The translations under genes were made by a program, and so were the position numbers. Positions 2,756 to 57,269 of a stretch of DNA of 64,000 nt are shown here, piece by piece. The notes beneath the pieces are model-generated. The model saw only the letters and a list, made by a program, of their open reading frames with translations. It ran no database searches and had not been told where the DNA came from. The stretch lies in NCBI RefSeq assembly GCF_964204645.1, contig NC_134026.1, forward strand, positions 6,510,001 through 6,574,000, given 5' to 3'. Source of the stretch: Tubulanus polymorphus (taxonomy: Eukaryota; Nemertea; Palaeonemertea; Tubulaniformes; Tubulanidae). Every line of letters starts with the position of its first letter. Position 1 is the first letter of the stretch.

Positions 2756-4465
2756 AGTGTTTCAGAGAACGACTTAAAGTTTCATTTCGTCATGATAACG
2801 CGAGACTTATGAGACTTAAAACGCCGACTGTAAGGCATGCAATTGTCCGAGGCCGCAAATTGGCGCGTTTAGGTCAACTGCGAGGTGACCATCAGCGCCA
2901 ACCGTAGTAGATTGCGCCAGTTGCACCTGGCAGAGGCAACGCAGAGCTGGCAGTTGCAAGGATGCCGTTTGTCGAAGGGTTTTTGTGTCGCTGTCGGTCG
3001 AATTACAGCCGTCTTTCAGGAAACCCAAAGTCGCTGGTAGAACCGTGGAATAGTCAGACTGATCACTCCTAGGTAGGACAGGCCACAAGTTGAATCATTC
3101 CATCAATGTATTCGAACTCATATTCTGTGTTTATCAAACGCGCTCGTGTCGGAAACGAGAGTGGAACCGTGTTAAAAGCGATCAACATTATCACATATAA
3201 TCCTCCCCGAGACCCCGATATGTAGAAAATTTCATTCTCGTAGTGAAAAAAGTAACAAGAAAAACTTTCATGGAATAGAAACGATATATCATTCTGATCG
3301 CTGGTACATTTGTCGACAGATGGCGCAACAGAGCAAGCGAAAGCATTCGTTAGAAAACAGCTGTTCACGAGGTGTGTTGTTTTGAGCTACGAGCAATTAT
3401 CATAGTAGTTTTGAGTTATGAATATGATATCATTGTGTTTACTGATTTCAACTTAATTGCAAATGTTGCCATGATTTTCTAGTTGTGCGATTGATGAAAA
3501 ATCATCTTTACTGATACTAATCCTTAAGTTTTTCGGTATATATATATATATATATAAAAAATTTGTTTTGTTTTTCGTATATTTACTAGATAACTAAAAT
3601 GAAGCTGCCATTACGGGCGATGTATAACATGCGTGCACTGAGGGAGTGCTCTGTCTTATATTCAACTGTAATCAACATTAAAAATTCAAATCTGCACATT
3701 CGGTACAAATACGTAAAACCATATAGAATATTGCCGACAACAACAACACGTTTATTCAGTCATAGAGCCTGGGCTTAGTTGGGCATCACCTTACAGCATT
3801 GCGCGAAAACCCACAATATAAATCTAAACATCTGCTATTGTTCTTTTCTTTTCTTCTGTTGTTCTTTCTTACGTTTCTACTTGTGGAATACATCCACCCA
3901 TCTTTGGAGTTTATTTGAAAGTTAGAAGTTTTGAGATTGACTTAAGAACCAAAATGACTGCAGACTGGTCACAAGTTGTAAGATTGGCCATAGAACCAAA
4001 TTGAATTTATACTGGTCTTAATTTGTGAGATTGCTTACAAAACTATTTGAGGGTCTTAGACTTGGTCTTAGCTTTACAACTGCAACTTGCCCCGGTGATG
4101 TTGACTAAAAGGACGGGCTGACACTAAGCGGATAGAGACCCATTTGAAAAATTGTGAAAAAATGATATCGCTGTCAAAACCGCGGTTAGTATCATCTTCT
4201 GATTGGCTGGGCTGGGGCTGGGGCGCTCCGAATGTCACGTTCATTCGACATAAACACAACAGCGGTGAATTAATGATATCGCGGATGTAACCCGGTGACT
4301 CCGGCGAGTATTTTCTTATTCATGCGATCATCTGGCGCTGTGGCGGCGTGTATACCAACCGTCGAGACGATACAAGGATATAAGATAAGCTAGACGCTTA
4401 TCGGATAAGAGGCGAATAACAGCTTATCAAATCAGCAGATACTACACGATTGCATAGAACTTTTA

Positions 4466-4723: not shown

Positions 4724-7700
4724 CTGCAAATATAAATAATGATAGAATATTCAGGATCTAGTAACAAATGAACTCATTTCAATCCCCCCTCCCGAACTGA
4801 GGGCAGGGTCCTGATCATGGAAGCATGTGTTGCGCTGATAATGTTCTCACCGACAGTGCAAGGGAAAATTTGTTTTTGGTATCTTTTTGCAAGTCATACG
4901 AATTATTTATGTTTGAATAGACTATCTATATTTTCAGCTTCAGAGTTAACGAGATTAAGACATCACTTTCGGTTGGTCTGGAAGGTCTTTATACGCGAGA
5001 ACGTCGTATAGGTACAGGATTCTAGTGTTATAGATGTTTAGTGGATGGAATATACATATATACATATATACATATATATATACTTGTATAATATATGACC
5101 GGTACTTTCTCTGGTGATTAGAAGCAATGATGCAACTACACGTTGCCTACATTGATTGGTTTATAGCTCGATCTATCTCGGTAAAGGTGCAGTAGTTACT
5201 GTATTTATTAAATGTTCACACATCGATCCGAGACAACCAGCTTTTATATTATACCACGGATATATCACGATTTTCCGGAATAACCGCGAGATTTTTTTAT
5301 AGGGCTTCTTGCTCTGGTTAAGGGGCCGGCTAGAACTCATTAAGATACGTTGATTAGACGGCGAATTGATTTACTCGGAAAAGTGAGAAAATATGTTCTA
5401 AAGTCGTCGCCCGCAGACGAGAGCATTTTGTGCTGCGCGAAGTTTGGACGCATTTAGCCAAGAATGGCTCGCATACCACGGGCTCGTATCCCATTTGTAG
5501 ATTAATGTTAAAACGATGATAAATCTATTTGAATATAAAGGAATTTTTCTGTTATTACTACATCGGGATTGAGGGTCTAGCAAGGGGAAAATATGATTTT
5601 ATTGATTCAAGTATCCCCATATCATACAAAAAGTAATAGTCATGTAATAAATCAACGTTGTTCTATTCTGAAATTAATACGAGGTCTAAAGATACATTTT
5701 TCAGACTAGGGAAATCTCTTAAGCGACCTGGCAGGCCATTGTGTCACTCCCCTTACAAATACTCGTTTCTCCATTGACTTGACTTGATATGTTGTACCCA
5801 ATGAAAACTACTATATACATTAGCATTGAAAGCTCGCAATTTTTAATAAAATCAGTTAATCTACACAGTATAACCAATCTTCATGTTTACTGATTTGACA
5901 CCTAGGTTATTTATCAACACGGCCAATCGACAACTTCTCTATCATATGGATTTTACATAAAAATTGAAGTGAAATAGTCTGACCGAAGCCGCGCATTGAG
6001 AAACTATAGGTATCTGTTAAGTCTTTTTTCTTTTGACTGAATTATTGGTCCCTTTCGTGAATATAACACGATACAATCTAACATACAATAAGGGCTTTAT
6101 CGACTCATTGAGCGTGAGAATGCTTACGGGAAAAATGCGCCTCCGATCGAATCCGACGAACCGACGACGGAAATCTTTCATTTAATGAAGCTTGTCTTAG
6201 ATTTCCGTTAACAAATTTTCCTCTTATCTCGAGACGTCCCTCGGAGTTTCGATGGCGCGCGCGCGGCGAGGAGATTGACAAATCAAATCTAGACGCAAAC
6301 ACGGCAGACAAACCGATTTTATTGATTCGTTCCAGATAAACTACTGTCGTCAGTTCCAATAGACAGATCTCTCAATAACCCCCTAACTCATCACGTGACA
6401 ACGCCAAGTTAAAGGTCAAACACGCCGATGAATCCCCAAAATTTGTAAATCTACGTCTCATCTTTGTTCCTATTTTCAAGGCAAGACCCACCTGGCTATG
6501 GTCTTATGAAGAGAGTGCGAAACGTCGAGTCCATTTAGAATTTTCATTTAATTGATAGATTTCGTTCTTAATGTTTTCTTTTGTTTGTTTTAGTGGATTT
6601 TAAACTTATTGACTATTGTTTCCTATTCTACGCGTCGGGTGTACGGGCTATTCTACTAGTAAGGTAAGTTCAAAGTTCAAATTTATTTCACGGTAAGTAT
6701 ATGACAGGCTATATACTAAGATTAATGGAGAATAAAAAACAATAAAATTAACAATATTTTCAACACGCACAATTATGAAAAGAGAGAAAGAAAAGCAGCT
6801 TTCTATGTGGGCCTCAAGGCCACTGTTGCGAGTACCCAGTAAAAGAAAGGAATGGAAAAAGATTGAGAAAAAAGAATTGATAAATTTCGTAACTTTAAGG
6901 AGAGTGTATAGGCATGGGCGTTTAAACTAGATTAACTCTAGTTAATACGTCCATGGTATGAATAAGCAAGAAAGTTCAGAAGCCGGAACAATTATAACAA
7001 TCATGGGTCATTACATTGATGGATATCATTGTTGGCGTAGGTGAGATAGAATCTATTACGTTTTACGGCAAGTTTCGGCAAAACAAACTATGACGTCACG
7101 TTGACCGCACTTTACACGAGTTACTGTGACTGATGACAGACGATAATGACGTCAGACATTCTCAGCTTTACCTTGATAATTTCACTCATTTCTTCCTCTT
7201 CGATTGCGCCGTTTCTATCGATATCGTAAAGTCTAAACGCCAGATCGAGCTTCTCTTCGGGTTTGCCGTCTTGCGTTATACTGATCGCCTGTAAAAGAAT
7301 ATTCTACACACATTCTATCAAAAATGGAGAATCATAAGCAAGGTATCACACGGAAAGGAAGGCTGGCCTTGGATATCGATGTACGGGCTCAATTTTCCGT
7401 GCTATTACGAACTTGTAATGGATATGATCATTCGAGGTAAAATTGTGTATTCTATAATCAAATATCCATCGTGGATAGCAATCCAGATTGCAGCATTCGG
7501 CTGACGTAAGTTTTTCTGTCTGTCCCTCAGCCCCGTTATCTCAAAATGGGAACAATCGACACTTTCAACGATTTCCAGCCGAGCCTGTTTGTTGTATAAT
7601 AAAGTCACGTCTGCGAAGCCCTGTAGCCGCAGATACAGATAATGAAACTTACGAATGATTAAGACTCGCCCCCCGCATTCCCCCCCCCCCCCGAGTTGAC

Positions 7701-13700: not shown

Positions 13701-14647
13701 ACGCTTTGAAAACAGCGTTCAGAGCGCAAATATCAGCGAATATTCTTAATTGATACTTCGCATTTCTGGCGAGAATCGTGACGTTGATGGAAGATCGACT
13801 TTTATCGCAGTGTTTAATTCGATTAGAATTTCCCTCTGTTCAGAAAAAGCGATTGGCGCTTGCTAGAAGGTATATATAGATTTATATATAGATGATAATT
13901 TCATCAGAATATGCAGTGTGAGGTGAAAGGGGTGAAAATGCCTAGAACGCAGCGAGCAGACCAGATAACTAGTCCTATACACATGAGACACGCAGATATA
14001 ATGAGCAATGACCAACGCTTGCTAGACACGCGAACATAGCGGCGACAAGTGCGTAAAAATATCTTCAAAGGCGTAATATGATCTGTGCCTGTTTATAATG
14101 CGGTATAGAAACTCGGCTTCGGCAAATGTGAAAAAAATGTTTCCTTACGACGTGACGTGAATTTGTGCGCGATATGATCGCGTAATGAGGTGTCAGCTAG
14201 AGTCGGTGACATGTAATGCCTGCTCGGTGAATTGGCGACCCTTTTATACCCCGAGTGTGTCAGGGGGTAATCGAGTTTAGAGAGTTCAAACTTCATCGAA
14301 AAACTGATTCGCTGCTGGAATTAGTTTTAAGGAAATCGCAGGTGAAAGCAAAGGTCGGAGCCCATTTTATAAATACACTATAACAATTGATAATAATTGT
14401 CATTTATGTAGCGCAGGTATCCAAACTAGAGTCTGTCCAAATGCGCTCCAAACTCGGTATAACCCCCAGCCTATGACTCTATTCATGTATCAGTCATCTC
14501 TCACTGTGGAGAAGTTACATCCGAGCAACTACTCAGGCGCTCAGGGGTCATCTATCGAGTCAGATATCAGGTCAGGTCGGATATATATGTTGCTTGAGTT
14601 TTTTTTAGTTCGGCTCGGCTCTCGCCGTGTGGCCACGATCAACCAGC

Positions 14648-14711
<64 letters not shown>

Positions 14712-14948
14712 TCCCTCTCCCTCTCCCTCTCCCTCTCCCTCTCCCTCTCCCTCTCCCTCTCCCTCTCCCTCTCCCTCTCCCTCTCCCTCTCCCTCTCCCT
14801 CTCCCTCTCCCTCTCCCTCTCCCTCTCTCCCTCTCTCCCTCTCTCCCTCTCTCCCTCTCTCCCTCTCTCCCTCTCTCCCTCTCTCCCTCTCTCCCTCTCT
14901 CCCTCCCTCCCTCCCTCCCTCCCTCCCTCCCTCCCTCCCTCCCTCCCT

Positions 14949-14990
<42 letters not shown>

Positions 14991-17900
14991 TTCTCTTTTA
15001 ACCATTTATGGCAGCGCAGAAATAAGCCTTACTCATTTCCTGAACTTTTACAATTTCTCAATAACCCAAACAGTTTACGGCGCATTTATGGGTGAATGGA
15101 ATTTGTGCATTTTTTTAACATAAAACACGAAAACAAGCAAAATATCATCATATAAAGACTGACGCTTTATGGAGTGAACTAATAAATGGTAAAAGGTTTT
15201 TCTTGTTAGGTCGTCGAGACCACACGAGTCGAGGATATAAACTACGGACACGTTCAGGATGTTTTAATGAAAGCGCGGACCTTCACGTAACCAATAACCG
15301 ATTGCAAATGGTACCAACAAAACGAGCTGATAATAATCTTAACAAGCAACGACGCTCTATCCCTTAGCCACCGTTCAGCTGTGTGCTGCAATCGGAACGG
15401 CTCGATCGAAAAAATAATCCCAGAAAAATAAGTGAATTTTCCATTTTTGTCACGAGGGTATACCTGACGAATTCCATCCTTTTTTTCCATCACTTTGACT
15501 TTGAAATATCAGATCTAATTGGATTCCGGTACAACATATTCATGAACTAAGTCAACAGAAATTCAACTGGCTGCGACAGACAAAAAGTAGCCGCACTTTA
15601 GACAAAAAGAGTTGGGTCATCCAGGACAATTCAATGGTTGAATTCCAACTTCATTCATTTCTTTCTACCATCTATCAAAAATATGTCCGTGTCCTTTTTG
15701 GAAAACTTCACCGTATTGTTACACCACTCATGGTTGTCAATTTGTGACCTTGACTTTGTCGACGAAAGCGCAGTCCAAGTAAAAACCACCTACGTGTCGC
15801 GACGAAGTGACGTCACATGTGCGTGTACTTGAGAACGTCCTAAAATATGGATGAGAAACGGCGCGATATTTTAGATCGTCCTGAGAAAAAACGCTTTTGC
15901 TTTTGCTTCGAAAGCACTTGTGATTTCTTTCAGGAACTCGCTCGTTATAGATCTTAGCTTTAAGTCTCTTCCTACCGTAGAATTTATTATATTATACAAC
16001 TTCGTGAGATAATGCATTTTTGATTAAGATTGAATTGTGGTGACGGCAGACATTGTGAAAAGTCGAGGCAAAGCGCAGTACCAACTCGATCGAGTGACGG
16101 TAGAAAAACAGAAGGATTTATAAACTACAGATTACCTTCCCACTTAGAGACTTACTCAAATTAACCCGCCCCCTTAAGTAAGAATCCTACAAAAATAGAG
16201 AAGTTTTTACCCAATTTTAGTGGGAAATTTTCAAAAAACGTTTTCGAAAATGGCCCAAATTGGGTCGAAACATCCAATGCTCATTTAGTTTTTCTTTATC
16301 ATTGTGGGTTTTTTACTTACACACACTTGTCTATGGAAACAACTCCCCTCGTTTCATTCCCCTTGATTTAGTTATTTCTTCACACATGACGATGGTCTCT
16401 AGAGACAGTCCGAAATGCCTCCTAATTTCTGTCATTGATCTTTCAGATTTGTACATACAGTCGGTTTTAATCTTTTCCATGTCTGAGTGTTTACGGGCGT
16501 TCCTACTACAGCGACGAGAGACGGCGACAGAACAGAGCAATTCATTTTCTGAGTCGTAACAGGTGATTTTTAAAATCACTCCCTATCAGCAGAATCGGAG
16601 TGCTCTCTCTCTTTCTCCATCTCTCCAGTAGTTCCTTAATCGACGTTACATGAGCTGAATTTTAAGTGGATTTTAACAGCTCAATTAGACGGAATTGCAC
16701 AAATCTTTCATCTAGCTCCGACTTTCGATATCGCGCTGCGTTATTCGATGCAGAATGTAAGTGGGTGGAAAATATGGAGTCCCATATTTTTCAAAAATAA
16801 AACTAGCGGTTTCAAAAAAGCCTTGCGATGCGTATAGTGATCAATCGCCAACATCTATGTGAGAAATAAATGTGGCTACATTTGAAATAGGGCTAGTTGA
16901 ATAGACTACATGGTCCAATATGGCGTAAGGTTAAAATCATTTACATTAAGAAAATTAAATCGCGTACGATTATAAAAATTGAATTTCTTGTAACACGTCC
17001 AGATTAGAAATGCCGTGACTAGGCATTTGAGAGATCCAAAGAAACATTTTTTTACGGCTTGCCACCATATTGCGATTTATTGTTAGCACCAATTGATAAA
17101 GTCGAAAAGTCAAAACGGATTTTTCATGCTATCGGAATGCTGCAATAGAGTACGCACAGCAATGCGATCGAGTACATAGTGTTTTGATAGCTGTATATAG
17201 ATTTAGTTGTCTGGATGGATATCGGCATTTCTCGATTGATATCTCTTACACCCAAAATACACATTATCAATACGTATATTACGTAATATGGCGTGATAAA
17301 ACAAGAAGGCGTTTTACACATGAAACCTATAACACGAAACACTTACAGACTTCACGGGTAACAAGTTCTTTGAAGATCTTAGATCCACGTCTCTTTAAAG
17401 CATGAATAGCATATTCCAGTAAAGACACAAATTTCGTAATATCTGACATATTGAAAATATGCTAGTTACGTAGTAGATGTATGTGTTACCCTAACGTTGC
17501 TAACTATACCGGTCCCTCCCCTAGAATCAAACTAGACCGACAAGTGAGTCATGTGTATAAAAAAAGGAAGGGACAGGATTGGTTCAGATTCTGGTCAAAC
17601 TCTGCTTTGAAACATCACTTCATAGGCTAAACGATTAGATCTACGAGGCATGAGATGCCTATCCATCTAAAACATAGAGAGTATATTCTAAAGAAAAAAA
17701 AAGAAATCAATTCTTTTTCTTTCGTCAAAATTCAAAAATTCCAAATTTGAATCCAAGTTAGACATTTTCGATTATCCAACGTCCTCCCAGTGAATCATGC
17801 ATAAAATCAATCGTATGATGAAGTAAAATTTGTTCTTCCGAGGAGCCTTAGATTTGACTCAGTTAACTCATTGAAAATTAACTAATTGAACTCGGAGCTG

Positions 17901-21000: not shown

Positions 21001-23858
21001 AAGATTATCAGATATGTGAGACTATAGTATCACATTACAATTTCTGTAATGAGCAGAGTTGATTCTCAATAATTGACTTAACTCATTTACCGGATGAAGC
21101 TAATTAACACTAGAAGTGAAAGCTCGTAATTTCTAATGAAATCAGGTAAGCTACGAAGAGTTACCTGTTTTCTTGTACAATCGATACCAGGTTAGCACGC
21201 CTCGTCTACAACTTTTCCTGTAATGTGGGAATTTCTCATAAATTTTACTAAGAAGCTCGCCTGGTCGATCCGATCGCAGTTCCGAGCGCGTCCGGTTATA
21301 CAACAAAAATATCTGATGGAGCTGATACGAATGTGAACCTTTACACAAAAGATGAGGTGTTTGGGAAACAGATTAACAGGGTGGGGAATCGACTGTGTAA
21401 ATGATTCATCTTCAGATGATATTCGAGCTAGTGCGAACGAAATCGTTATCTCCATTGTATTTACAGTAGTTTTCAAACTTCTCCCTCTCGGAAGCTTATC
21501 GACAAGTCTAAGTATTTCTACAGCCAGATATGCGTGATGTCTACACGGCTCGCTATCATAATATACCCAACAACACTAGAGCTAATCTCCATCTAGAGTG
21601 CGAAACATTACTTTACAGATAGTAAAAACCGACGGATCACTCCCGGGGTTTGACTCGATACCTGCGCGTCTCCATTAGCGGTATATTAGCTCTTCGCTTA
21701 TTTGCACGTAATGGTCATTACTCGTGTTCAATTTACAAATCTCGACGGTATATCTTCCTCGCGCCTCGCGATGACGGAACGCCATCCACGCCTTTGGACG
21801 CTGCACACGACGCGGGCTGAGTTACTGAGTTAACGATGACCAAACCGTTCAAATAGCGCCTCGAAAAAAACCGCTGACCGCCAGAAAGAGACAGGACATC
21901 GTATCCATGATACCTTACCGTTGTAAAAATTTCCATTATATTACTCGTGCAGTAGATTGTGTTTACCCCGGAGTCGAGTGCCTCGAAATATCACATCTAG
22001 TAGATTTTCAGAGTGCGAGATTTCTTTTCATTTAGTGTTGATAACCTCTACGACCGGGCCCGTGTTTTACAGACTTTTAAAGTACAAACAATACCTGAAA
22101 TATTTATATGTTTTAGTAAACTATTTAGTCAATTTACAGTTGGCTTTTTGCGTTTTATTTACAACAAAGCTAACACCGAAATTCGCCTCAAGCTTCATTT
22201 CATCTGCCGACTTGAAAATCTTAAGGTCGTAGCCCCTGCGCAATATATTTTAATCGTTTCTATACTGCTCGGTTTTGAATCAATAACACCCTAAACACGA
22301 TCAACGACATCCGTTTTAGTTGCGCACAGTCGCGTGCTGTTTGCGACGTTATGAATGTAGAATCAGTATATGACAATATGACGTGTTCCGATTCGATCTG
22401 TAATTACCTACAAACCCCCGTGATTAATACGATAATAAGCGGTATATTTGTGTAGAATTGAACTAAGGGTCAATTTTGTAAACTTAGAGATCTCGTTCGA
22501 TTATGAATCCAATGAAATTGAGTTAGTCTAATAAAAAGGCAGGTTAAGGTCAGTTTTCACTAGGAATCGTCTTGTTGACATTTGAATAGTCGGCAAAGTC
22601 TGCGCCCTCGGATATGGGAGTGCTCCATCATAAAAGTTACCACAGGGAAGCGAGTTTTTATTCAATTCAATAATTGTGTGGAAGTACAACAAGAATTCGT
22701 AAAATAAGGTTCATTTCTACATGGTATATTTCTAAAAGGAAATATACCGATTCGAGGGTCCAGCTCAGGGTAGATTATCTTGTCTAGAATAAACATACGA
22801 TGTTCACATGGAGGAGGGTTCGATCGAGTTTGAGTACCGGAAAATGATGTTTAAAATTCCGACTGTATCGTATAATGAACTGACGTGTACTCGTGAAATT
22901 GATGAAAACGTGTTAGAAAATTAAGTTTCAACTGCAATTCAGTTTCGTTTGTGTGAGAATTAATCGTCAGATGCAATTAACAATTCTTACATTATCGCGT
23001 TTTTAATCGTAACCGACATTGAACCAATATTCTGCAGTTTATTTTAGATTCAGTCGGTGACGCAGGAGAATTCCTCGTCACTGACCGCATCATCATCATC
23101 ACTGGGGATGAAAGCATCTCATACTGATCAAATAAACGTCTCATTTTCATAATAAACTGAATAATGTATAATTGTCTTAATGGACGGATTCTTTTTATTG
23201 CCGCATAGGACGTGAGCTGTGCAAAAATATACACGCAATTTGATAATCGAGAATAAGATAAACGTTCGTGTCGAAAATATGGCCTAAATCTAAAAAATGT
23301 TTATGATCACTAATATAGATGGAAAACGCTTTTTACGAAACCTTTTAACACAAAAAAAATGCAATAAACCTAACCTAAACTCAGACATGGCTAACTCAAA
23401 CTTTTGACTAACTTGGACAAAAACAAAATCATTTCCCCACTGCTTAGCGTTTTTTTTTTCGATCCTACTCAGGCTGCTTAATTTGGCCAATTTTGTCCGC
23501 AGAGTTAGGCGAGGTTCACTGCAGTATTCGTTTCTATATCACGAATATACGTATGACTTACATTTCAATTCTAGTTTTATTGTCTTCCGCGCAATAACTC
23601 ATATTTATTGGTTCATTGATAATTTATGAATCAGCCAGGTGTTTCGTATCTATCTTCAGACACTGGTAAATCATAGAGATTTATAGCTAATTAGCCTACA
23701 ATAATGGCGCTCAAAAACGCGATTTACTGATTTGAATTCAGAATTTCAGATTTTTTATTCATGTTGGTGATTTATCAGATTCATAAAACAAGTTTTAACT
23801 GTTCCACTTAGATCTATTAGAAAAGATTCACATATCCCAGAACAACAACAAGTAGGAC
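18092..23858. other. Intergenic, no gene supported
   Basis: Several short ORFs occur here but show no motif, no codon pattern and no splice-linked partners. A short CT-rich run occurs near 18325-18370. There is a 10-bp-arm hairpin at 22723-22748 (GGTATATTTC and complement). A tRNA B-box-like complement occurs near 19119. Confidence 0.5.
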
Positions 23859-27300: not shown

Positions 27301-30300
27301 TGGTTATGAATTTAATCGTGGCTTTATGGAATATATATGTTTATATTCAATTCAATTCAATCAACTCTTCATTATATTGATACACCTGGTCGAGACGTAC
27401 GGAGTTTAAGTTTACAAACCTGGATTCATGTATGTTTGTGATTGGAAATTTTGCAAAATGCAACCACGTCGGAGACAGCAACTTTCCGAAGAATAAATGA
27501 CATTCATTCTAAAATCATTTCAAGATCGTTTAGTGCGAGATTCTTTCACTTGTCGCTATTCGACACTAGGAGCCACCTCATACATATTTAGAAAAGAAAA
27601 AACCCCAGACTCCAATCTAACTCGCATCTGTGAACCGGATCCAGATCTGCCATCTACTGTTATATGAGTATCTTACCGTTATTTACTGCTGCCGTTGCTG
27701 CTGCTGCGCTATTTGGCCGATTTCGAGCCTCTTCTACTTTTTCACGAATATCATCTTTCACTAAATAATTCAACTGTAGAATCGACAAATAACTAGCGAT
27801 TTCTGATCATATTCAGTTAACGGACACAAACGAGAGATATTTATGGGATATTCATAACCCGTAATTTCACTTTTCGATCTGGTTCCTTATCGAAAAGCAA
27901 CTTAATTTTCATTACATAGTAAAAAGTACTTTAATGAAATGATATATGATTCCCTGAATTGTTAAGTCAATATGAGACTACAATCTTTATTTGCTTAGTG
28001 TAATCAGTCATTGGACCCTGTGCCCAGTATCACGAATAGGTTTAACTCGGATTTTTGGTGGTTTCATTGGTATATTGGTAACATCACATTGGTTACATTA
28101 CTTCAAACTTATACTCATTTAAGCTGATAAGCTTCGTTTTAAGCTTTTCGTGCAGTAAACCACGCCCACTGGATAGGTCATCGATAGAGGTGTTTCGCCA
28201 AAGCCATATTGGCCGTCACGACCAATGTGACGTGAGGTGTGTATAGCCCGCGTGGATAAAGCTACAAAAAGGATACGCGCAAGTCTCTGTATAGGAACCG
28301 CGTTATCATCAGTACTGGTAGGTATATGAGCCTCAGCCTCCCAGAATAGTCGTTTCGTCAGCATCTCATTCGTCACCGGTAACAATTGATCCAAAGCGTC
28401 GCTGAATTCTTTCCACGTCATTTGTCCTGGTTCTTTACCGGGATGTAACAACAGTTTACCTTCACACTGTCGAATTGACGGAAAACGATATCATTAAGTC
28501 GTTAGATTGGTTAAAGATGGACTGAGACTTCGCGACAACTGTTCAACGAGGATACCCTATGTAGGAAGTAAAACACACGTCTATTTGCTTGAATTGTGGC
28601 TACTGACCTCTAAAAGTCTTAGCTCCCTGTATTTCAGTATGAGATAAAGTAAGTATTCTAGCACCAGCTCTTTCGATATTTTGTTCCTCGTGAATGAAAT
28701 GTAGCCCATTTGTAACGTTTCGAAATCATCTTCCTGGAAAAATTATAAGCGTGAACTGAACTCAACGACTATCAGACATTTTTCATTTTGCGAATCGACA
28801 TCGACGACAAGCTTGACTCTGAAGTTTGACTTTGAAGTTGACAAGATTCGTAGAGGAGCCGTGTCGTTACCTGGTGTAGAATCATCACAACGGGACGAAT
28901 ATTACTTTAAAGATGTAACTAGTTTATTTGACGCACGAGCTTTCGCTACTAGTGAATATGTAGTAGCCTCATCATTCGCCTGATGAAGCTACAATACACT
29001 GATAGCGAAAGTTCGTGCGTCAAAGAAACCAGTTACACCTTTAAAGTACTATTCGTCCCGTTGAAACAGTTCATTTCCAATGTTTTAACTTGAGTTTGAT
29101 AAACTAACAACTGTAGAACTGGATCCAGGACTTAGTTCTACGCGGTGTTTCTCAGTTCAGTTTCGCTTCATAATCGAAGAAGTTAATTCGTATAAAAGAT
29201 ATTTTGAATTTTACTGAGATTCTAACCGAGAACTGTAGAATTGAGCACGTACCACTGCGAAAGGATAGAGAACTTCGCAAAACAGTCGAAAATCGTTGAC
29301 TTGTTTCCATTCGACTCGATCGATGAGATCGGCCAGTAACAGGACGTATCTATAAGTCGCCGCATCGTAATTACCAACCAGTACATGTATAAACATCTGA
29401 ATAAACTGTAAAACAATTTTTTTTTTCAAATTAAGATAGTTCCGAGCTATATGAAACATGAACAGAAATCTAGGTGAAAGGTAGCTTGGCTTGAAGGTTT
29501 AATACGGCAAATTACGGCAAGTCTTTTTTTCCCAAAAGTATCAATAATTATGGTACTTCCTATTTCTAAATTTAGATTTAAATTCGCCCAATTTATTCCA
29601 AATTGCAGGTGTATGGATAAGAACTCTGTGAACTCGGTGAGCGTGCAGATGCACATTTTTCCTCCTCTCGCAGCCCCGAGGGAATTCTTAACTCAGTTAT
29701 ACCAGAAAAATACTGCGTTTACTTTATTTTTGCCGGCGTTTCCCAGAAGAGACGACAGCAGATCGTGCATAGCAAGAAACATGACGTCTTCTTTAAGATA
29801 TCGCTCCAGCATAAAATGATAAAGATTTTCCTGTGAAATATACGAATATCAAAGAAATGTTAAAAATAGGAAAAATGCAATAAAGATCGTTTGAGACTTA
29901 TGAATACTACGAATACAATCGTCCATTAAACACAAATTTTGAATGTAATCAAAACCTACAGAATTTCAGACGTCCAAAGTTTTTAAACGCTCAGTATTTC
30001 ATGTCATCATCATGTTAGCCTATAGCTTAATGCTTACTAGGATGGAAAAATATCCTTCTTCAGAATCGCCGTGTTCATCCTGCCAGATGATAAATGCACT
30101 GAATTGTTCTATCAGAGATTTAGATCTCGCCTGCAAGAAATAAATGACGAATTTTTTCTATTCAAGAGAGAAAATCACACTTTTTGGAGAAAAGCTCTCG
30201 GACGCGGAAGAAGGCACGCACCAGTGAAATAGGTCGCGGAATAGTGCGAGCAAGATCCGTTCTTTCTGCATAATCTTCCCACAATTTGTGCGGTGGATAT

Positions 30301-43100: not shown

Positions 43101-45091
43101 TGGTGACCTTAGAATAGCAAACTGGTTACATAACATAAGTTAACAAAACATGTGTCTAAAACATTTGAAATGAATAATGAAAAATTTTGAAATTTTGAAA
43201 ACAGAAGTAATAAGTTAGCTTTTATAATCTGTTATCAGTCTGTTGAACGAAGACTTTATTTTACAATCATGTCATGGCGACAAGTAAAAAAGTCAGTTAA
43301 AAACACTGTCCTATGGGAGGTATATCTGTTCGATGTTCTTGTTTTGCAGGAATTTGTCCTGATCAGATGAGTTTAGACTCGTTGGACAAGTCGGCACCGC
43401 ATTGTTTTAGCGACGGCAGAGTGACCGATTGTGGGTATGTTTCGAATGAAATGATATATGAATACCGGGCATACTCTTGTCTTCAATAGATACCGGCACA
43501 AAAAATTAGGAAGTTGTTCACCTATGAAAATTATATGTTTTTGAAGAAAGACGCGAATTAAACCAAATATTGCAATAACGTCTGAAATATATTAGTGGTA
43601 GTGGCTATTTGTTCTCATAAGTTTATATTTTCATAATTTTCATCGATTCTACCAACTGATATTATTCGAGTAGATTTGATTGACTCTGATTTTCGTAATT
43701 GTCGATGTTTTTCAGAGATGAGCTGGCCAGAACGCGGTGTTTACGCCAGGAGTTAAACTGTTCAACTAGTTCTATCGCTGACGCTCTTTTGAATGCCACC
43801 TCGTGCAATGACACCTGCTTGAATTTACTTTCGAATTCCAGTCGCCTGATTGAAGATATGAAATCTATTTGTCCTTATCAATATTCCTGGCTGACGGATG
43901 GCTGGAAAAATAACACACCTGAAATAAATTGCAGGTAATTATTGATAGTTATTTTTGGGATATGAGTTATTGTCAAGACCAGTAGAAGCCCACTCATTTG
44001 TTCTTTTATTCTTGCTTTATATCGTTTTGATCTTTGCTACTCGAGACTAACCCTACTGGATTGTTCATTTAACCTCACGACGGGACCACGCACTTTTTGA
44101 AGTGTCACACCGTAAGCAGCCTATGCAGGACTCGAACCCACTTGTCTTACTTAGAGCTGATCATATCAGTCCTCATCCCACTGAGCTGAGGCCGCCATTT
44201 TCAAACAATTCATCCGAAAAAATGCAAACCCAAAATGCAGTTCCATAGATTCGATCTATGTATGACTTAAATAAGTAAAATATTTGAAAAATACTTTCTT
44301 TTAAATCTGGAATGATACTTAACAGAGATCTGTGAGCTTGATCTTGAAAAGCTAGTCCTGTCCAGTCCTGATTACACGACTTACTTTCCAGAAATCTTTA
44401 CCAGCGTTACCTGATAATTCTGACTCAATCGTGAAGCTTTATCAATGATTTCTACTGCATTTTAATCTTCACAATTCATTATTTCCAGGCATCGTAGATT
44501 ACTACAGTTGTGTGGACATCTGAATGATCGCAATTGTTTCAATCGTTCAAATAATCAATCGGAATTATTGACACAAACTCTGATTGATCTAAATGACGAT
44601 TATTCTGTCTCCGAGTTTGACGACGATCTTTCGTGTCAAACTGGTGCTAACAAATCATCGTCGTTTTCTGAATACTGGTTGAAATGGGACACGTGGAACA
44701 CGTGTCAATCGTATCTATCCGAGTGCAAACGAGCGTTGAATCAAAGTCAAATCTCAGCCGCTTGCATGTAAATTATACATATTTCGATTATATATAACGA
44801 GATTAGTAGTGCTATGTAGGTCTGAATTTTTCTTCGTTTTTCTCAATTTCTAGGTGTTTAGAGAAGAAGTTTATCCCTTGTGTTGTGTGGGCGAACGATG
44901 ATTTCTACTACGGCTGGTCGTCGGATTCTGTTTCTGTTGGTTTTAAATCATTATTTGAACGATTCGTCAACGATGTGGACGTAGTAAGAATAACCGGATT
45001 TTCAGCGAAATGCCTCGCGTCGGGTCCTCACAAGTCGACAACTGAAACCGCGATCACAACGACGAAGAAAAATACGTTTCAAAAAGTTTAA
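37924..45091 (+). CDS. Type II membrane protein with SEA domain and Cys-rich ectodomain, 14 exons
   Basis: Exons 37924-37977, 38733-38816, 39754-40180, 40757-40894, 40989-41054, 41173-41282, 41367-41434, 41910-42088, 42529-42655, 42740-42906, 43350-43434, 43716-43934, 44489-44767 and 44854-45091 sum to 2241 nt, an open frame of 746 aa plus stop, with GT/AG at every border. Residues 1-209 are a polar, disordered cytosolic part. A basic KKRKR stop signal is followed by one membrane segment (about 210-234). A SEA domain follows (about 257-375) with the motif SGSVIV at 317-322. The rest is Cys- and N-glycosite-rich and consists of repeated modules. There is no signal peptide, so type II topology is inferred. 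SEA domains occur in mucins, enterokinase-type proteases and receptors, where the domain self-cleaves and stays associated. No protease or kinase domain follows, so the molecular role is unknown. Confidence 0.88.
38215..38410. repeat. Diverged tandem repeat in SEA gene intron
   Basis: About three copies of a segment with GAGATTCGGATACTTTGAGA and the related GAGATTCTGATACTCTGAGA, spacing irregular. It lies between exons 37977 and 38733. Confidence 0.5.
39205..39300 (-). repeat. Dispersed repeat, AAGTCGAAACGT family
   Basis: On the minus strand it reads TTAGGATAAAGTCGAAACGT followed by CGAATAAAC and then GAGCTCGAG. It matches the right half of the 8.3-kb copy and the copies near 26835 and 54810. 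Confidence 0.55.
40215..40450. mobile_element. MITE-like element, CCAGTTGC family, copy C
   Basis: The right end is the complement of CCAGTTGCGCAGTCGCGACT. The left end (about 40215) is degraded. It is in a SEA gene intron. Confidence 0.45.
40757..40894 (+). CDS. SEA protein exon 4, transmembrane segment
   Basis: It encodes a short acidic stretch, VYRKKRKR, then a hydrophobic run of about 24 residues starting TIIAVISVFGALIC. Positive residues lie on the N-terminal side, so the N-terminus is predicted cytosolic (type II). Confidence 0.85.
41173..42088 (+). CDS. SEA protein exons 6-8, SEA domain
   Basis: Exons 41173-41282, 41367-41434 and 41910-42088. The beta-alpha-beta pattern starts VARFKLRFTIENQIF, continues with SSIQNGVDKMYSN, then SSGSVIVTMKLYLKT, and ends FLPDYTISTDSVSITVQ. 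The G-S-V-I-V motif aligns with the SEA autoproteolysis site G/SVVV. The domain is split by introns of phase 0 and phase 2. Confidence 0.85.
41455..41613. repeat. 30-bp tandem repeat in SEA gene intron
   Basis: About five units with the core TTCGTTCAGTCTCTTGACCA, fairly regular 30-bp period from 41486. The intron lies between exons 41434 and 41910. Open frames here are a result of the period. Confidence 0.85.
42529..45091 (+). CDS. SEA protein exons 9-14, cysteine-rich modules
   Basis: A pattern C-x(8,9)-C-x(6,7)-C recurs: CRSQLSKLITCMQKPSGC, CGDELARTRCLRQELNC and CRHRRLLQLCGHLNDRNC, with a last partial copy CLEKKFIPC. Further cysteines and amphipathic helices follow each. Many NxS/T sites agree with extracellular location. 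The stop TAA is at 45089-45091. The module does not match a domain I can name with confidence. Confidence 0.85.
44125..44200 (-). repeat. tRNA-like sequence (SINE head)
   Basis: Reverse strand: GGCGGCCTCAGCTCAGTGG has an A-box-like AGCTCAGTGG, and GGGTTCGAGTCC (44128-44139) is a good B box about 40 nt later. The length and order fit a tRNA-derived SINE promoter. It is in an intron of the SEA gene. A functional tRNA is unlikely because the acceptor arms do not pair well. Confidence 0.5.
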
Positions 45092-48191: not shown

Positions 48192-49000
48192 TTAGTCTCG
48201 TCGCTGAAGTCTTTCATTTTCGCCGTTTGAAAACGACCTGTGGTAAGCGGGGTTGACGCGTACGAACGGACTTTGCGTCGTCGTGATTCTCGTCAAGGTG
48301 CACGATTCGCAGCACACGCAGCGCATCACGATCTGTTTGAAAGCTTTACGAAATTTCGTCGAGATGACGTTGTAAACGATCGGGTTAACGGCGCTGTTGA
48401 TGTAGATCATCAAACGGCAGAAGTAAACGATGGCGATTATTGTGGTTATGCCGAGCTTTTTAAAAGCCTCGATCGAGTTGAATATTAAATATAGAGACAA
48501 GACTCGAAACGGAAGCATGCAAACAAAAAACGCTACGGTTAATAAGATGAGCATTATTACGATCTGGCGTCGGCTTTGTAGCGCTATGAGCGCTTTTTCG
48601 TCGGTCTGGTTCCCGAGCGCACATTTATCGTATAAAAGTCTCTTACCGACGATACTGTAAAGAACTAACATAATGACAAAAGGAACCATAAGAAAACAGA
48701 CCGCGTTTGCCGTTATGTATACTTTCTGCCATGTTTTTGTAATCAGAGTCTGGCAAACGAAAATCGAACTTCCATCCGTTGCGCTTTTCGACGTCAGTTC
48801 CGCCATGAAGAAAAACGGCAACGTCGTTACGATGGCGACCGACCAGACGATTGTTAGTAGTTTCGATAGGCAGCGATTGGTCCAGAGAGCAGGAGCGCGG
48901 AGTGGGTGGCAGATGGCGTAATAACGCTCCATGCTGATCGCTAGAATAGTCAGGACCGACGCGTGAGTTACTGCGTTCTCCAAAAACGGCAAGAACTTAC
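48192..49000 (-). CDS. GPCR exon 2 (TM3 to C-terminus)
   Basis: It starts by completing the TM3 Cys codon, then KFLPFLENAVTHASVLTILA and ERY. ECL2 has a Cys (SIFVCQTLITKTW). TM5, TM6 (FFVCMLPFR) and TM7 (NPIVYN) follow, then a C-tail with Cys residues suited to palmitoylation (RCVCCESC). The stop TAA is at 48194-48192. Confidence 0.9.
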
Positions 49001-52000
49001 CTGCAAAGAGAATCATTTTCAATTAGTTATGTCAAGTGTCAGAGTTCGTAGAATGTAGAGACGACCAGGATTCGAGCCCATTTTTGTATGAGTGGAATTG
49101 TTACACCTGTGATGCTATATGATTTTGTGATTTGTTATAGCGAACATTAAAGAATTTAATCATATAAGAAACCCGTGCTTAGTTGATCGATAAAATTCAC
49201 ATCCAAGGTCAGTCAGAGGTCATCCTGTAGTCCTGTGGAGTTGTGAATTTCGGATAGAGCATGGACGTTAGTTTATAGATAGAGTTTATAGAGCATGGAC
49301 GTTAGCCCATGGATAATAGCAAAGAAAAAGGGGTTCTGCCTATTTTACTTATAATTATATATTCTACCACCGTTCCAATTTGTTATATGAAATAAACTTA
49401 AAACTTAAATTCTGATGGTATTGTCAGAATCAGTTCGGAGACGTGTTTTCGCCTGTCTGAAGCCAATCGATTCACTCAGCGGTTCAGCATGCAATGATTA
49501 GAACGCTGGTAACCGACCCCTCCCCCGGTACTTAATATATACGGCATCAACAACATCGGATAATCCGTGACAAAAATCTGTTAGTCTAGAATTCCCTGTA
49601 GGGATCAAACGCATAAACCTGAACATGACACGTGGTAGGTATACGGTGTGCCTTGGCGCGCTATACGCTTCTCGAATAAGCAAGTTACTCACTTATCCTT
49701 GTCACGCGTCAGAGCCATGAATCAAGAAACCTAGGAAAAGCTTACAAACTTCTAAGATCGAGAAATAACTTAATAATTGATCAAAGAACAATATGTAACT
49801 GAATATATGAACAAAATGTTCAAAAGTTTACAACATCTAATACGAATTCACCACCGTGGTGTAATGAATAATTATGTATGAGAGCGTTAAACTAGTTCAT
49901 GTAATATGTTTTTAACTCAGAGCTGAGGAACTAAGTCCCGGGGCAAGTTGTTCAAAAGTATGGTATACCTGTGGCGTACAGAGAGTGATAATAGATGTAA
50001 CAGTTGAATTGTGCCTTAAATTATGGGTTTGTTTGAAACTCTGGGCAAATATTCATGATAAGCCGCTTTACTATCTAAGTTGTCTTAGTATATTTATTAT
50101 GCTGACGACTTCTTCAAATAACGCTTCAGTAGACTGAATTGGAAAAACAAATAAGCTACATTTTAAGAAAAACAGTTACGCGAAAACTGGGTATTGGGGC
50201 CTGCCGTGAATAACTGAAAAAGTGGCAATCTAAAATATCAGATTTTGTCAAAGTCGTCTTTAGTAAGACTAGTCATGAGACTTTTTCAAATTGATGAATA
50301 CGATATGCATATGCATGTTAATGGAATTTAGATTATATCGTATGATATCAAAGAGATTTACAATTACAATTACATTTACAATCAAAGAAATGAAATAAAC
50401 ACGTTACCGATACTAAAAATATAGATGTCCGTAATTGCTGTAATTACGAGGCTGTCGTGCAAATATAAATCATTATTATAGTCTGTGCCGACCAGATGTA
50501 GCCACTTCCAGTGGTTAAATTGGTAAATTGATATATGAAAATCAATAAGATATATTAATGGCATTTGAGTCCCCTGTGGTTGTCCGTGTCAGTTATAAGT
50601 GCTATCATATGTTCATTATCAATCTTCACGTAGTTTTATTGATGGATATGGATGAGCCCGATGATACACAATATCACATCTACGTAGCCTATAACTGAAT
50701 GAATCTAGAATATCATATCACCAGTGTATGTGCCGTCGTGTTATCTCGTGATTCAAGCATTCAATTAATTGATCATGCATTTGATGTTCGAAATAAAATT
50801 GATTGATTTATATCTAAGAAAACACGAAAGCAGGTGTTCATTGTTATGTTCATGTTCATTGTGTTCGATTAAACTAAGGGTCCGTCGTACAGCGAAGCCT
50901 TCGTCAATTGTTTACTTCTCTGCTTTTCTGGACCCGCCTTGTACATACAGCTAAAGCCTTTTATAATTCCGCGTTGGGAACAATGAACGAATTTGGCAGC
51001 GTTATAAAAAAATGTCATTTTCATCGAATTTGAATTAGATTTAGAAAATTAAAATTTTGTTCTCTGAAAATGTTAGCGTGAAATTAGTGGTGACATGAAA
51101 GGATGACAACGGACTTTGACTGTTTTATCACTCATAGTTATGAGTTAAATATCACTGAATGTAAGTTGTGGCAGTGACTGCCATAGAGGGAGTTTACGTG
51201 ACGTCACTGCACGTCATATTGAACGCCATGCGCAAGCAGCTAACTGCTATTTTACAACCAGGGCGAACTTCGGTTTTCGTTAGTGTCAACGTCGGAGCTA
51301 ATAATCGAACGCACCTCGGTCGTCAAAGTGTCGGCCATCTTGGAAATAGGTCCGAACTACAGCGACTGTGTTCAATCCCTTGGTCGACAATTTCCAGACT
51401 GCAGCTTGGACTTACGGACCTTCGGTTTCCAACTTAGTTTGACTAACTCCGATAACCGAAGTTCGCCCAGCATGACGAAGCGGGCAAACAATACGTGTGA
51501 CATCCGTGCATTTCGACTAGATATACGCGATGAACTGTTCGGTTCATTCCGTAGCAAATCAGAACCTAATAAATTACAGACTACGAACGGATTTTTCACC
51601 TTCCCTGGAATCTAATGCGATTCAGAAGCCAATGAAAAGCTAGCGAAAAAAATTCAATCCATCGTTGACTATTTTGCACCTTTTCCAGCGCAACCACGCG
51701 TCACTGACAGTTAATTGAATGCTCCACATGCAGTCAACTTGTGATTCGAGCTCCGTGCTCGTTAAATCCTAAGAAATGCGATAGTTAGCATTTGCGTGAA
51801 ATCACGATTTACTCTTATGACTTTTATGAACTCAATTCTACCGTTGCATTAGACTCACAGCCATGGACTGGACACCGGGGGCGAATCCAACAAAACTGTG
51901 GAAATCAAACACGCATTACTGTGGAACTGATTCCAGAGTCAGGTCAAACCTACATAACTGACCAATACACTGGGCCCAGACGCACCGATGAAAATAAGTA

Positions 52001-55000
52001 TTGATGATCATTGAATTGAAGTAGATTACTGTGAGAAGTTGAGAAGTTCCGCTGTTGGTAATCATGATTTATCTGCATGTTCGCCGTGAAGCCCCCAGAA
52101 AGACGGACGACGCGACTCCCAGCTCGTAATTAAACAGCGAAAGAGAACTTATTTTCTGCGTGACTTGTCATTTCATTTGTCAATGTTTTCAGCTGATTCA
52201 AAATAAGGTAACTAGGAGAGAAATGCCTAGAATTATAATCATTTCCCTGGTAAGTTACCTTACCTCACAATTAGCTTCCATTTTTATCTCAGGGTTACGA
52301 CTTATCACCGAAAGTCTCGTCCGAAAACAAAGTCTCGTTATCAGCCGTCAATGAGACGCCATTTCCGCTCTATCCCGTCTCCACGGGTGATAAAACACAC
52401 CTTTAGCGTTAGTCGGATTTCTAAGAAGAAAGCAAATGGCGAAATATAAGCTATTGCGGTGCTTTTTTCTGAGTTTTAATAGCTATTTTTATCGGTCGAT
52501 TTTGAATGCCAAGGTTGATTCTGATCATTCTGGCGAGAAGCGATATAGCTATATACGGCTTTTAAGATATTGGATTCTTGGATGAAATATAATGGATGCA
52601 TTTTTCTTGTTCCGTGGTGTGAACAAAATCCGATCCGAATATGTCTTAAGTTTAAACAGGAGTTGCCGTCGACGCGAAGAGATTCTGAATGTCGTGATAT
52701 CAATTTTGACACGGGTTTCCTGCCTTAATTGCCTTCGTAGTTAAACTACTGAATGTCTCTTATTCCGACAGAAATAACACACACGTCACCAAACCAACCG
52801 TAGGCTCTCCAGAGATCCAATTAATTATCGGGCTCTATGATTAATGTTTTATAGACACCAGACTGTCTGCTATTTAAGCGCATTCCGTTCTATACAAAAT
52901 CCATTGAAATCACGAAAATTGAAAATACTCAAAATTTGCTTGATATGATACTTAATAACATATTCAATGATTATAGTAAAAACGCAACTAATCTTCAGAT
53001 CTGGATGATAGGATGAAACATGTAAATAAAATCATCTAATCATCCTGAAGATTTTGATAGTTGCGCTTTTACAACTATTTGACTATCCCGATGCTCTTCC
53101 GAAATTCTAATAACAAATCCGAATTTAATTCCATCAGAATTCACCTTTGTCCTTTAAACCTGTTTTTAAAGAACATCGTCAGGTTTGAAATTTCACATTT
53201 CATTTCCTTGCATTCCTAATATCTTAATTTCAAAACTACAAGTAGCATGTAAACGCGTTTGATAGAGCTATGCCTTCGTCTAAATCTTATTCATCGATAG
53301 AAACGTGCTGTAAATCGGTAATTAAAACCATCACCTGAAAAAACAGGTTTCGATTGGTGGCGAATTTTAGAAATAACTTCGTTGTAGACAAACGAATGGG
53401 ACCTCCGAGATATCAAATACACGCGATATTTCGTGATAGTTCAGACAATCAATTGATTGCTCTATACGCAATTCTATCACTAGAGAATTTCTTCTTGGAG
53501 TCGTTTCAGGGAAGAGGGAGGGGAAGAGGCAGAGGCAGAGGCAGGGGCAGGGGCAGGGGCAGAGGTAGAGGCAGAGGCAGAGGCAGGGGCAGGGGCAGGG
53601 GCAGGGGCAGGGGCAGAGGCAGAGGCAGAGGTAGGGGGCAGGGGCAGGGGCAGAGGCAGAGGCAGAGGCAGGGGCAGGGGCAGGGGCAGGCGCAGGGACA
53701 GAGGCAGGGGCAGGGGCAGGGGCAGAGGTAGAGGCAGAGGCAGAGGCAGAGGCAGGGGCAGGGGCAGGGGCAGGCGCAGGGACAGAGGCAGGGGCAGGGG
53801 CAGAGGGAGAGGCAGAGGCAGAGGGAGGAGGAGAGGCAGAGGCAGAGGCAGGCGCAGAGGCAGAGGGAGGGGGAGAGGCAGAGGCAGAGGCAGGCGCAGA
53901 GGCAGAGGCAGAGGGAGGGGGAGAGGCAGAGGCAGAGGCAGAAAACCACGCCCGAATCGTCCACTTCTTAAATCATACTTATCTATGACTACAGCAGAAT
54001 CCGATCGCGGACTAATTATTTTGGATTTCCGGGTTTATATCATCGCGTTGTCTGGCGATATGGCATCATTCTAGAGGGGGATGTCAGTAATTGAAGACGC
54101 TGAGAGCGGTTTTATCTCCAGTGCCCTGGCAATCATTTGTCGTCATTTATTACAGCCAGGAAAATTACAGAGAGCGTACGACCGTGCGCTGCTCTCTACA
54201 GTAATCAGTATTCCCACTGTGCGCCTCTTATACGTTACACCTTGCGGTAATTTTATCAGGAAAAACGTAATATTGTTTGTTCCCAGTGATTGTGTATATT
54301 TTTTCGGTTAATGCATCACGATTATTCCCTCATCCAAACATATTTTTCTTTTGAATTATTTGGTTCGATTATAAGACTGGAGACGGTACGACGAATAGGG
54401 TTTACACTCTAAGATGATTTTGCGACCTGACGCTTGGTCTGAAACGTGACGTCACATGTATTCCCACTGAAGACTTCGCTGTCTGATGACACCTGCTACA
54501 TGACGTCATATTGACCGTCAAGTACAAATAGCTAGATGACGTATTAGAGGCACGTTGGACGTACAATATGACGCCATATTGGCCGTCTAATGGTCGTCAA
54601 CTGTAACTCTAAATAGGTCATTCAACCGCTTGCGTTTGATGGCCGATGTAGAGAACGATGTGATGTCACAGTCTCCACAATATCAGTGTAACCACTGATG
54701 AAATACCCTGATGAGTCCGTGTTGTGGCGATAACAACTCCAATCCCGCACACTGGGAATAAAAATAGTCCGAAATGTTTCCTAGAGCTAATTTATGCGAC
54801 GTTTAGAGGGATGACATTTAGGATGTAGTCGATACGTTGAATAAAATAGTAGCTCGAGGCGACATTTCGGACTCTAGCGTGGGATGATGTTTAGCGTGTG
54901 CAGAACTAATAGAGGGCGCTCGCTATGTATCGTAGCGGGTTATTATGCTCTGGCGTATTGTATGTATATTGAGCGCTTCACATATTCCCTGTTGAAGGAA

Positions 55001-56511: not shown

Positions 56512-57269
56512 TAATGACCAGACGTGATTTTCAAATTTATCGCTTTGAATATTTCATAGCGCGTTCGACGTTATAGTTCGGTGTTGTTGTTATGCCTCGA
56601 AATCTGACGTGTGTTCATCTTTAATCTCTGTTTAGATGAATGTATTATCGAAACCGTCGCCAGTTATAATTGCTATCTTCAATAATTATAACTTAAAGAC
56701 CTGCGCACGCGTTTATCCGTATGACTTACAATCGGCGAACGCGTCGAGATGTTTGCAAACATATTCCATACGAGACCGAAATCCGCGGGAGTACTGCATA
56801 TATATAGATTCGCTAATCTGAGAGGTTTATGCGAAACAGATTTTGTCACTGCGCAATTAACGAGTCGCAAATCTGCGCGTTTTATCGAGGGACCGCATGA
56901 ATCAAGATCGCTTCAAATCAGTCTTCGAGAGTGGGCATAGAATTAACGGTTGTGTTAACACAAGACGAACACTTCGTGTTATCTACTGTTATCATGTTTC
57001 AAACGTGTAGTGATATATGTGATTAGTTTCGTCATGTCGTCCCCGCTCAGTTGTGGAGTTTCGTCAAAATAATCACTGTCCGCAAAACATATCTCGACGT
57101 TCTAAAAGAAATAGGCCTGCGCATATCTTCCATTTTTTCCGCCCAAGCTCGAAGCGAAGTCGCCTTTAATCCTGCGCTGATTATACGACTGATTAATATT
57201 AGATTTTTTTTTCATTGTCGTTTCATCATCGGATGTGGTCTAAACAGGCTTTATTAGAGTATTCTACGT

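Follow-up and report, generated by a model that had tools for sequence, protein, structure and literature searches.

A palindromic repeat family of Tubulanus polymorphus linked to Penelope-like elements and carrying a hammerhead-like core

The palindrome and its parts in the window

The window, by which we mean the whole 64-kb stretch of Tubulanus polymorphus DNA that was analysed, contains a palindrome with arms at 28888-28957 and 28994-29063. The arms are 70 nt each, are 89% complementary and lie 36 nt apart, which confirms the palindrome that a first-pass annotation of the sequence had placed at 28888..29063. As RNA it is predicted to form a hairpin of -111.2 kcal/mol on the plus strand and -121.5 kcal/mol on the minus strand (z -17.7 and -19.3, respectively). 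The annotation had also read words in the order of a hammerhead ribozyme core in each arm. The right arm is as described, whereas the left-arm core is incomplete because an A occupies the catalytic C3 position. An intron setting, which had been assumed as well, was not established, as the nearest ORF (28119-28490, minus strand) has no Pfam family and no database protein of similar length. The parts of the palindrome, named according to the interpretation developed below (pLTR, pseudo-LTR), and the degraded family fragments of the window are collected in Table 1.

Table 1. Parts of the palindrome and related fragments in the window
Feature	Position	Strand	Basis or remark
Tail on one side of left pLTR	28845..28887, perhaps from 28841	-	Window versus arm probe positions 1-111: 28845-28958, 88%
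Left pLTR arm, inverted, hammerhead-like core incomplete	28888..28974	-	A at C3, G replaces extra A
Core remnant in left arm, TGATGA-G-GCTACTA...TAGTAGC-GAAAG	28940..28974	-	Sequence
Right pLTR arm, tail-less	28976..29063	+	Match to arm probe positions 42-128, 86%
Right-arm core, match to minimal hammerhead descriptor	28977..29017	+	Descriptor search
Right-arm inner stem I, CGC/GTG	28977-28979 and 29015-29017	+	Descriptor match, contains G.U pair
Right-arm CTGATGA	28980-28986	+	Extra A at 28987
Right-arm stem II, GCTA/TAGC, 4 bp	28988-28991 and 29003-29006	+	Descriptor match
Right-arm GAAA	29007-29010	+	U-C at 29013-29014, predicted cut after 29014
Single pLTR fragment of the palindrome family, degraded	21089..21209	-	blastn, 71% identity, E 2e-12
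Marginal pLTR-family fragment, degraded	44786-44821	+	E 7e-4
Marginal pLTR-family fragment, degraded	5814-5870	-	E 0.002

Elsewhere in the window, the ORFs 48195-49022 and 56137-56553, both on the minus strand, match the 7tm_1 receptor family over the Pfam cut-off and may be exons that belong to one receptor gene or to two. Long low-complexity stretches at 14541-15123 and 53339-54074 hold several open frames on both strands. The GC skew is -0.25 at 14001-16000 and +0.17 at 52001-54000.

Copies in the genome and the link to Penelope-like elements

A search of the genome for further copies, as the annotation had proposed, revealed that the palindrome unit belongs to a dispersed family: the arm 18-mer GCGAAAGCTCGTGCGTCA has 750 near-matches (382 + 368, at most 2 mismatches) in the 268-Mb genome, compared to 10 (2 + 8) for its reversed control. 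The palindrome itself, used as a query, gave at least 82 matches, with 40 of 544 candidates scored. A total of 106 loci was examined, 26 of them because they resemble the window palindrome and 80 because they surround exact occurrences of the 18-mer on contigs C1-C6, among the places listed and leaving aside repeats of earlier loci and three others; this second set is biased to the 18-mer used for choosing. Five of the places (L107-L111) were taken with longer flanks. In many copies an outer side extends 40-45 nt further; the counterpart of this extension in the window is the tail of Table 1. Single-arm copies end at or near GGTGAATGAGT and have short repeats on their flanks (e.g., L073, L090, and L096). 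TSD-like repeats (score of at least 9) accompany 19 of 62 ends that reach the tail; in the control, in which ends were paired with flanks taken from other copies, 2 of 310 had one. The set includes a few low-complexity cases and counts L030 twice. These repeats vary in length, mostly between 9 and 14 nt, and the flank-repeat test found no TSD at the window copy.

Sequence similar to protein P0001 was detected by tblastn in 6 of the 106 arm loci (L043, L045, L059, L075, L078, and L079), and the same search found none in the window. The closest database relative of the arm-adjoining coding sequence is LOC141900033 of Tubulanus polymorphus, which is 90% identical. Because the arm adjoins RT/GIY-YIG coding sequence in these six loci, we read it as the pLTR of a Penelope-like element (PLE). 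Canonical elements of this kind are marked by RT and GIY-YIG in one ORF, according to PMC11167929, and this combination occurs beside the repeat, as fragments only in the loci examined. The L107 ORF (762-1658) matches GIY-YIG with an E-value of 2.3e-4 and 21.9 bits, just under the Pfam cut-off of 22.6; the GIY-YIG match of P0001 (19.8 bits) is also under the cut-off, as are both the RVT_1 and the GIY-YIG match of P0003, and both domains of the turtle relative P0002 score over their cut-offs. The proteins align in shared blocks. Comparison with solved structures gave three weak RT matches for P0002 and no match for the L107 ORF. Another ORF, at 3226-3555 (+) of L108, lies beside Penelope fragments and has a Pox_A32-type ATPase match of 28.1 bits (cut-off 22.8); it may be left over from a Maverick or a virus.

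In L108-L111 the endonuclease frame runs toward the arm, so the arm in these loci is the 3' pLTR in sense orientation. In L107 an ORF truncated at its 5' side lies between an inverted pLTR and a direct 3' pLTR that has a tail. Inverted pLTRs that meet head to head in a palindromic junction, an optional tail on one side, TSDs of variable length, and single pLTRs give the family the anatomy of the Penelope type, as in endonuclease-bearing PLEs. The link of the palindrome family to Penelope, which the annotation had inferred, is therefore supported by RT/GIY-YIG sequence beside arm copies and by the form of insertion. Its suggestion of an unusual insertion form was right in kind, but such a form has already been described for Penelope elements (PMC3846280).

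The endonuclease-bearing Penelope of Adineta vaga (PMC3846280) resembles the Tubulanus family in that its pLTRs occur both in direct and in inverted orientation as well as singly, form palindromes where they meet head to head, can carry a tail on one inverted copy, and are accompanied by TSDs. It is present in few copies, whereas Tubulanus has hundreds of short, pLTR-only copies; its pLTRs are 181-218 bp long compared to approximately 90 bp, and its tail is 31 bp compared to approximately 43 bp. The available part of that paper mentions no hammerhead in the pLTRs, in contrast to the hammerhead-like core in Tubulanus. Poseidon_Ac (PAc) of Anolis (PMC11167929) is comparable as an RT and GIY-YIG element with a pLTR hammerhead, and in that the tail corresponds to RT start sites. 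PAc is reported to be active in vitro with an ORF that begins at stem II, whereas the Tubulanus element is known here from fragments, none of which shows an ORF start.

The hammerhead candidate of the pLTR

The descriptor used to search for hammerheads comprised CUGANGA, stem II, GAAA, a UH site, and stem I in this order, and allowed one extra base after A9. The family arm reads as an inner stem I of CAC/GTG, CTGATGA, an extra A, a 7-bp stem II, and GAA-A-GC-U-C, with a self-complementary AGCU, and the cut is predicted before GTG, at GAAAGCTC/GTG. The descriptor is matched by the family pLTR, by the PLE-linked pLTR of L108 (220 nt), and by the right arm in the window; the left window arm does not match because of its C3 position. 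When the 220-nt pLTR was shuffled, 4 of 100,000 sequences matched with a stem II of at least 4 bp and 8 of 100,000 with at least 3 bp, counts that flatter the hammerhead because the descriptor was written after the motif had been seen. Judged from its sequence, the consensus of the family pLTR fits a minimal type I hammerhead that lacks helix III and contains an extra A10 as well as the self-complementary AGCU. Two other arrangements were rejected on inspection: a classical helix III (GAAA-GC-TCGT-GC-GTC) would require one G to bulge out and would leave the core without an adjoining stem I, and a palindrome-spanning hammerhead in type III order has no stem I beside the cleavage site.

Minimal type I hammerheads without helix III are reported to be carried by Penelope pLTRs (PMC6155905, PMC7761336), and double hammerheads to depend on tandem copies and on a helix-III loop that is palindromic (PMC6466107). 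The Tubulanus candidate shares with these the type I order and a self-complementary sequence in place of helix III. It differs from minimal Penelope hammerheads, as known from reviews, in the extra A after A9 and in a stem I of only 3 bp at the core. The hammerhead of CChMVd has a natural extra A between A9 and stem II, which moderately slows cutting, and C or G in its place is described as very harmful (PMC3705267). Metazoan non-LTR retrozymes, which are thought to be moved by PLEs, are likewise short, non-coding units with type I hammerheads (PMC7229834). They are described as direct tandem repeats with mostly canonical hammerheads, whereas the Tubulanus copies are single or inverted and their motif is minimal.

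Among 143 arm sequences, the extra base after A9 is an A in 128 (it is a G in the left window arm), CTGATGA is kept in 67, and the whole descriptor is matched by 26. In the 48 arms of L001-L026, which were chosen without the 18-mer, consensus columns 41-63 are conserved at 90-100% and columns 64-95 at 58-100%. To look for covariation, 50 of the 58 cores listed were aligned, each of them selected because it has CTGATGA. In this alignment 86% of the stem II cells are paired; one stem II pair is changed on both sides in 12 of the 50 cores and unpaired in 20. The number of doubly changed pairs (2) is not above that in shuffled alignments (mean 1.5), although the number of doubly changed cells (13) is higher than in the shuffles (mean 8.2). 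No compensating change was found in stem I among the 50 cores.

Folding in 170-nt contexts gave a stem I probability of at most 0.021 (inner) and 0.009 (outer), and a stem II probability above 0.95 in L108 and L109 and of about 0 in L111. In 105-nt contexts of L108 and L109, the hammerhead fold lies approximately 3 kcal/mol above the minimum. Weak folding alone is not decisive, since the lizard hammerhead is reported to cut only with protein added; it is also described as dispensable for insertion in vitro (PMC11167929). The covariance-model check suggested in the annotation came out negative: Rfam gave no hammerhead in the window, in 28600-29350 (E up to 10), or in six loci, although its models perhaps do not cover the form without helix III. 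A genome-wide search with the Hammerhead_1 profile returned three weak matches below the cut-off (73 of 34,410 candidates scored), and matches at the same sub-cut-off level occur in 11 of 14 control genomes.

For the window copy, the right arm is the only match to CTGATGA-N4-30-CGAAAG in 64 kb. This pattern was also present in 6 of 100 shuffled windows, and by itself it is weak evidence for a hammerhead. The right arm is the only descriptor match in the window too, compared to a match in 11 of 100 shuffled windows, or 3 of 100 if stem II has at least 4 bp. It offers candidates for the stem I and cleavable site that the annotation had called for, namely an inner stem I of CGC/GTG and a U-C site. 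Within the whole palindrome, the right-arm stems have a probability of 0, and six of the seven bases of the core are paired to other parts of the hairpin (probabilities of 0.84-1.0). Self-cleaving RNA in both orientations, as envisaged in the annotation, is unlikely because the left arm lacks C3 and has a G for the extra A, the right core is paired into the hairpin, and Rfam gave no match. With its core decayed or trapped in a long hairpin, the window copy should be inactive and probably no longer cuts RNA in either orientation. Support for the hammerhead reading extends to the family pLTR, which fits the form without helix III with a UH site and a 3-bp inner stem I, but not to the window copy as an active pair.

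Alternative explanations and formation of the inverted pairs

The explanation that accounts best for these data, and which we regard as very probable when its parts are taken jointly, is a non-coding head-to-head pLTR pair of an endonuclease-bearing PLE with an inherited hammerhead-like core that is inactive in the window. A MITE or foldback DNA transposon, the long inverted repeats of which form the palindrome and resemble a hammerhead by accident, would share the short, non-coding, palindromic unit and the high copy number. Arm copies nevertheless adjoin RT/GIY-YIG sequence, single arms themselves carry TSD-like flanks, the repeat length varies, and the tail is one-sided, so that neither a TSD of fixed length nor symmetric terminal inverted repeats were found; we consider this origin very unlikely. 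An active head-to-head arrangement in which the transcripts of both strands cleave themselves is extremely improbable: core-like words stand in both arms and the right arm matches the descriptor, but the left arm is missing C3, and the right-arm stems are lost in the palindrome, where nearly all core bases pair with the other arm. An old insertion may also produce a hairpin transcript whose small RNAs silence the Penelope family. The hairpin is long and strong, and most Penelope copies of Adineta are reported to give small RNAs, preferentially antisense (PMC3846280). The matches to microRNA families are, however, weak and lie far under the gathering scores, as any long hairpin may give, and a microRNA precursor was rejected on these scores; such silencing is an unlikely addition.

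Of more weight, and still rather doubtful, is the idea that the palindrome is a Penelope pLTR pair whose core resembles a ribozyme by chance and never was one. It agrees with the lack of an Rfam match, with the share of shuffled windows that contain the loose pattern or the descriptor, with covariation essentially at a single pair that is often unpaired, and with a weak stem I and an extra nucleotide in the core. It is opposed by the rarity of the descriptor among shuffles of the pLTR itself, by reports of hammerheads without helix III in this kind of repeat (PMC6155905, PMC7761336), and by the natural precedent for the extra A in CChMVd (PMC3705267). Most likely, the core is what remains, in worn form, of the small ribozyme that PLEs carry. 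By analogy with other Penelope hammerheads, any activity of the pLTR hammerhead would depend on a double-hammerhead form or on the protein of the element. A bolder proposal holds that the pLTR hammerhead works in one of these ways only and that the pLTR-only palindromes make up a non-autonomous family of high copy number, comparable to retrozymes but inverted, which forms whenever two cDNAs begun on both target strands meet at the RNA 5' end; we regard this as possible but doubtful.

During insertion, the protein of the element would start cDNA near the tail, and the cDNA would run to the RNA 5' end at ACTCATTCACC, an RNA start predicted from the junctions. The inverted arm would then arise at the RNA 5' end, either through self-priming or through a second cDNA begun on the other target strand. 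In the window pair the optional tail lies on the left pLTR. Self-priming has been proposed for inverted pLTRs (PMC3846280). The lizard Penelope protein is reported to cut and extend both target strands (PMC11167929), so two cDNAs could meet head to head.

Arm divergence is 0.131 within a copy and 0.158 between copies (39 loci), and the nearest neighbour of an arm is its own partner for 7 of 78 arms, with approximately 1 expected. Mismatches at subfamily sites within a copy number 46 of 185 (37 pairs), compared to a shuffle mean of 96 and a minimum of 74 in 2000 shuffles. The arms of a copy disagree at 0.24 of subfamily sites, a higher value than the 0.11 at other sites. This agreement at subfamily sites does not separate self-priming from two cDNAs. 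Among 21 loci, the complete arm has the length needed for reaching the tail in 11 and the truncated arm in 8 (classes that may overlap), and the two apparent outer end points are partly an artefact of probe length and a small indel. Complete arms are not set apart from truncated ones as a lineage of their own (21 loci, permutation p 0.62), and 8 junction types occur among 12 junctions found with one pattern, 5 of the 12 being identical. Both results argue against multiplication of the palindrome solely as one ready-made unit, and its repeated formation is favoured. One junction type, read by eye, is common to L004, L005, L013, and L014, where the palindrome may have been mobilised as a whole.

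Penelope pLTR palindromes and minimal hammerheads are already known; the member from a nemertean, the palaeonemertean ribbon worm Tubulanus polymorphus, is new. Among the papers listed by literature searches, and judged by titles and the starts of abstracts, none is about a Tubulanus Penelope. In this one genome, Penelope insertion has left hundreds of natural end products whose junctions, tails, and TSDs can be read. Such copies could be used to test whether self-priming or a second cDNA on the other strand gives rise to inverted pLTRs, which PMC3846280 leaves undecided. The Tubulanus pLTR also provides a candidate Penelope hammerhead, recognised from its sequence, with an extra core nucleotide. 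To our knowledge, this nucleotide (A10) is otherwise known only from the hammerhead of a viroid.

Some copies lie within larger repeats. Four palindrome copies on G000:C3 (23383845, 23395604, 23408769, and 23421958) are spaced 12-13 kb, and L019 and L022 are 97% identical over 1.1 kb; a longer, palindrome-carrying unit seems to be tandemly repeated in these cases. At G000:C12 (approximately 6.08-6.44 Mb), most of the 3-kb surroundings is common to five copies (L010, L017, L024, L025, and L026), so the palindrome was multiplied there inside a larger repeat. L033 contains mirror-oriented pLTR pairs (951-1158 and 2905-3112) that lie 1.7 kb apart, match in identities and extents, and share 262 nt of identical flank.
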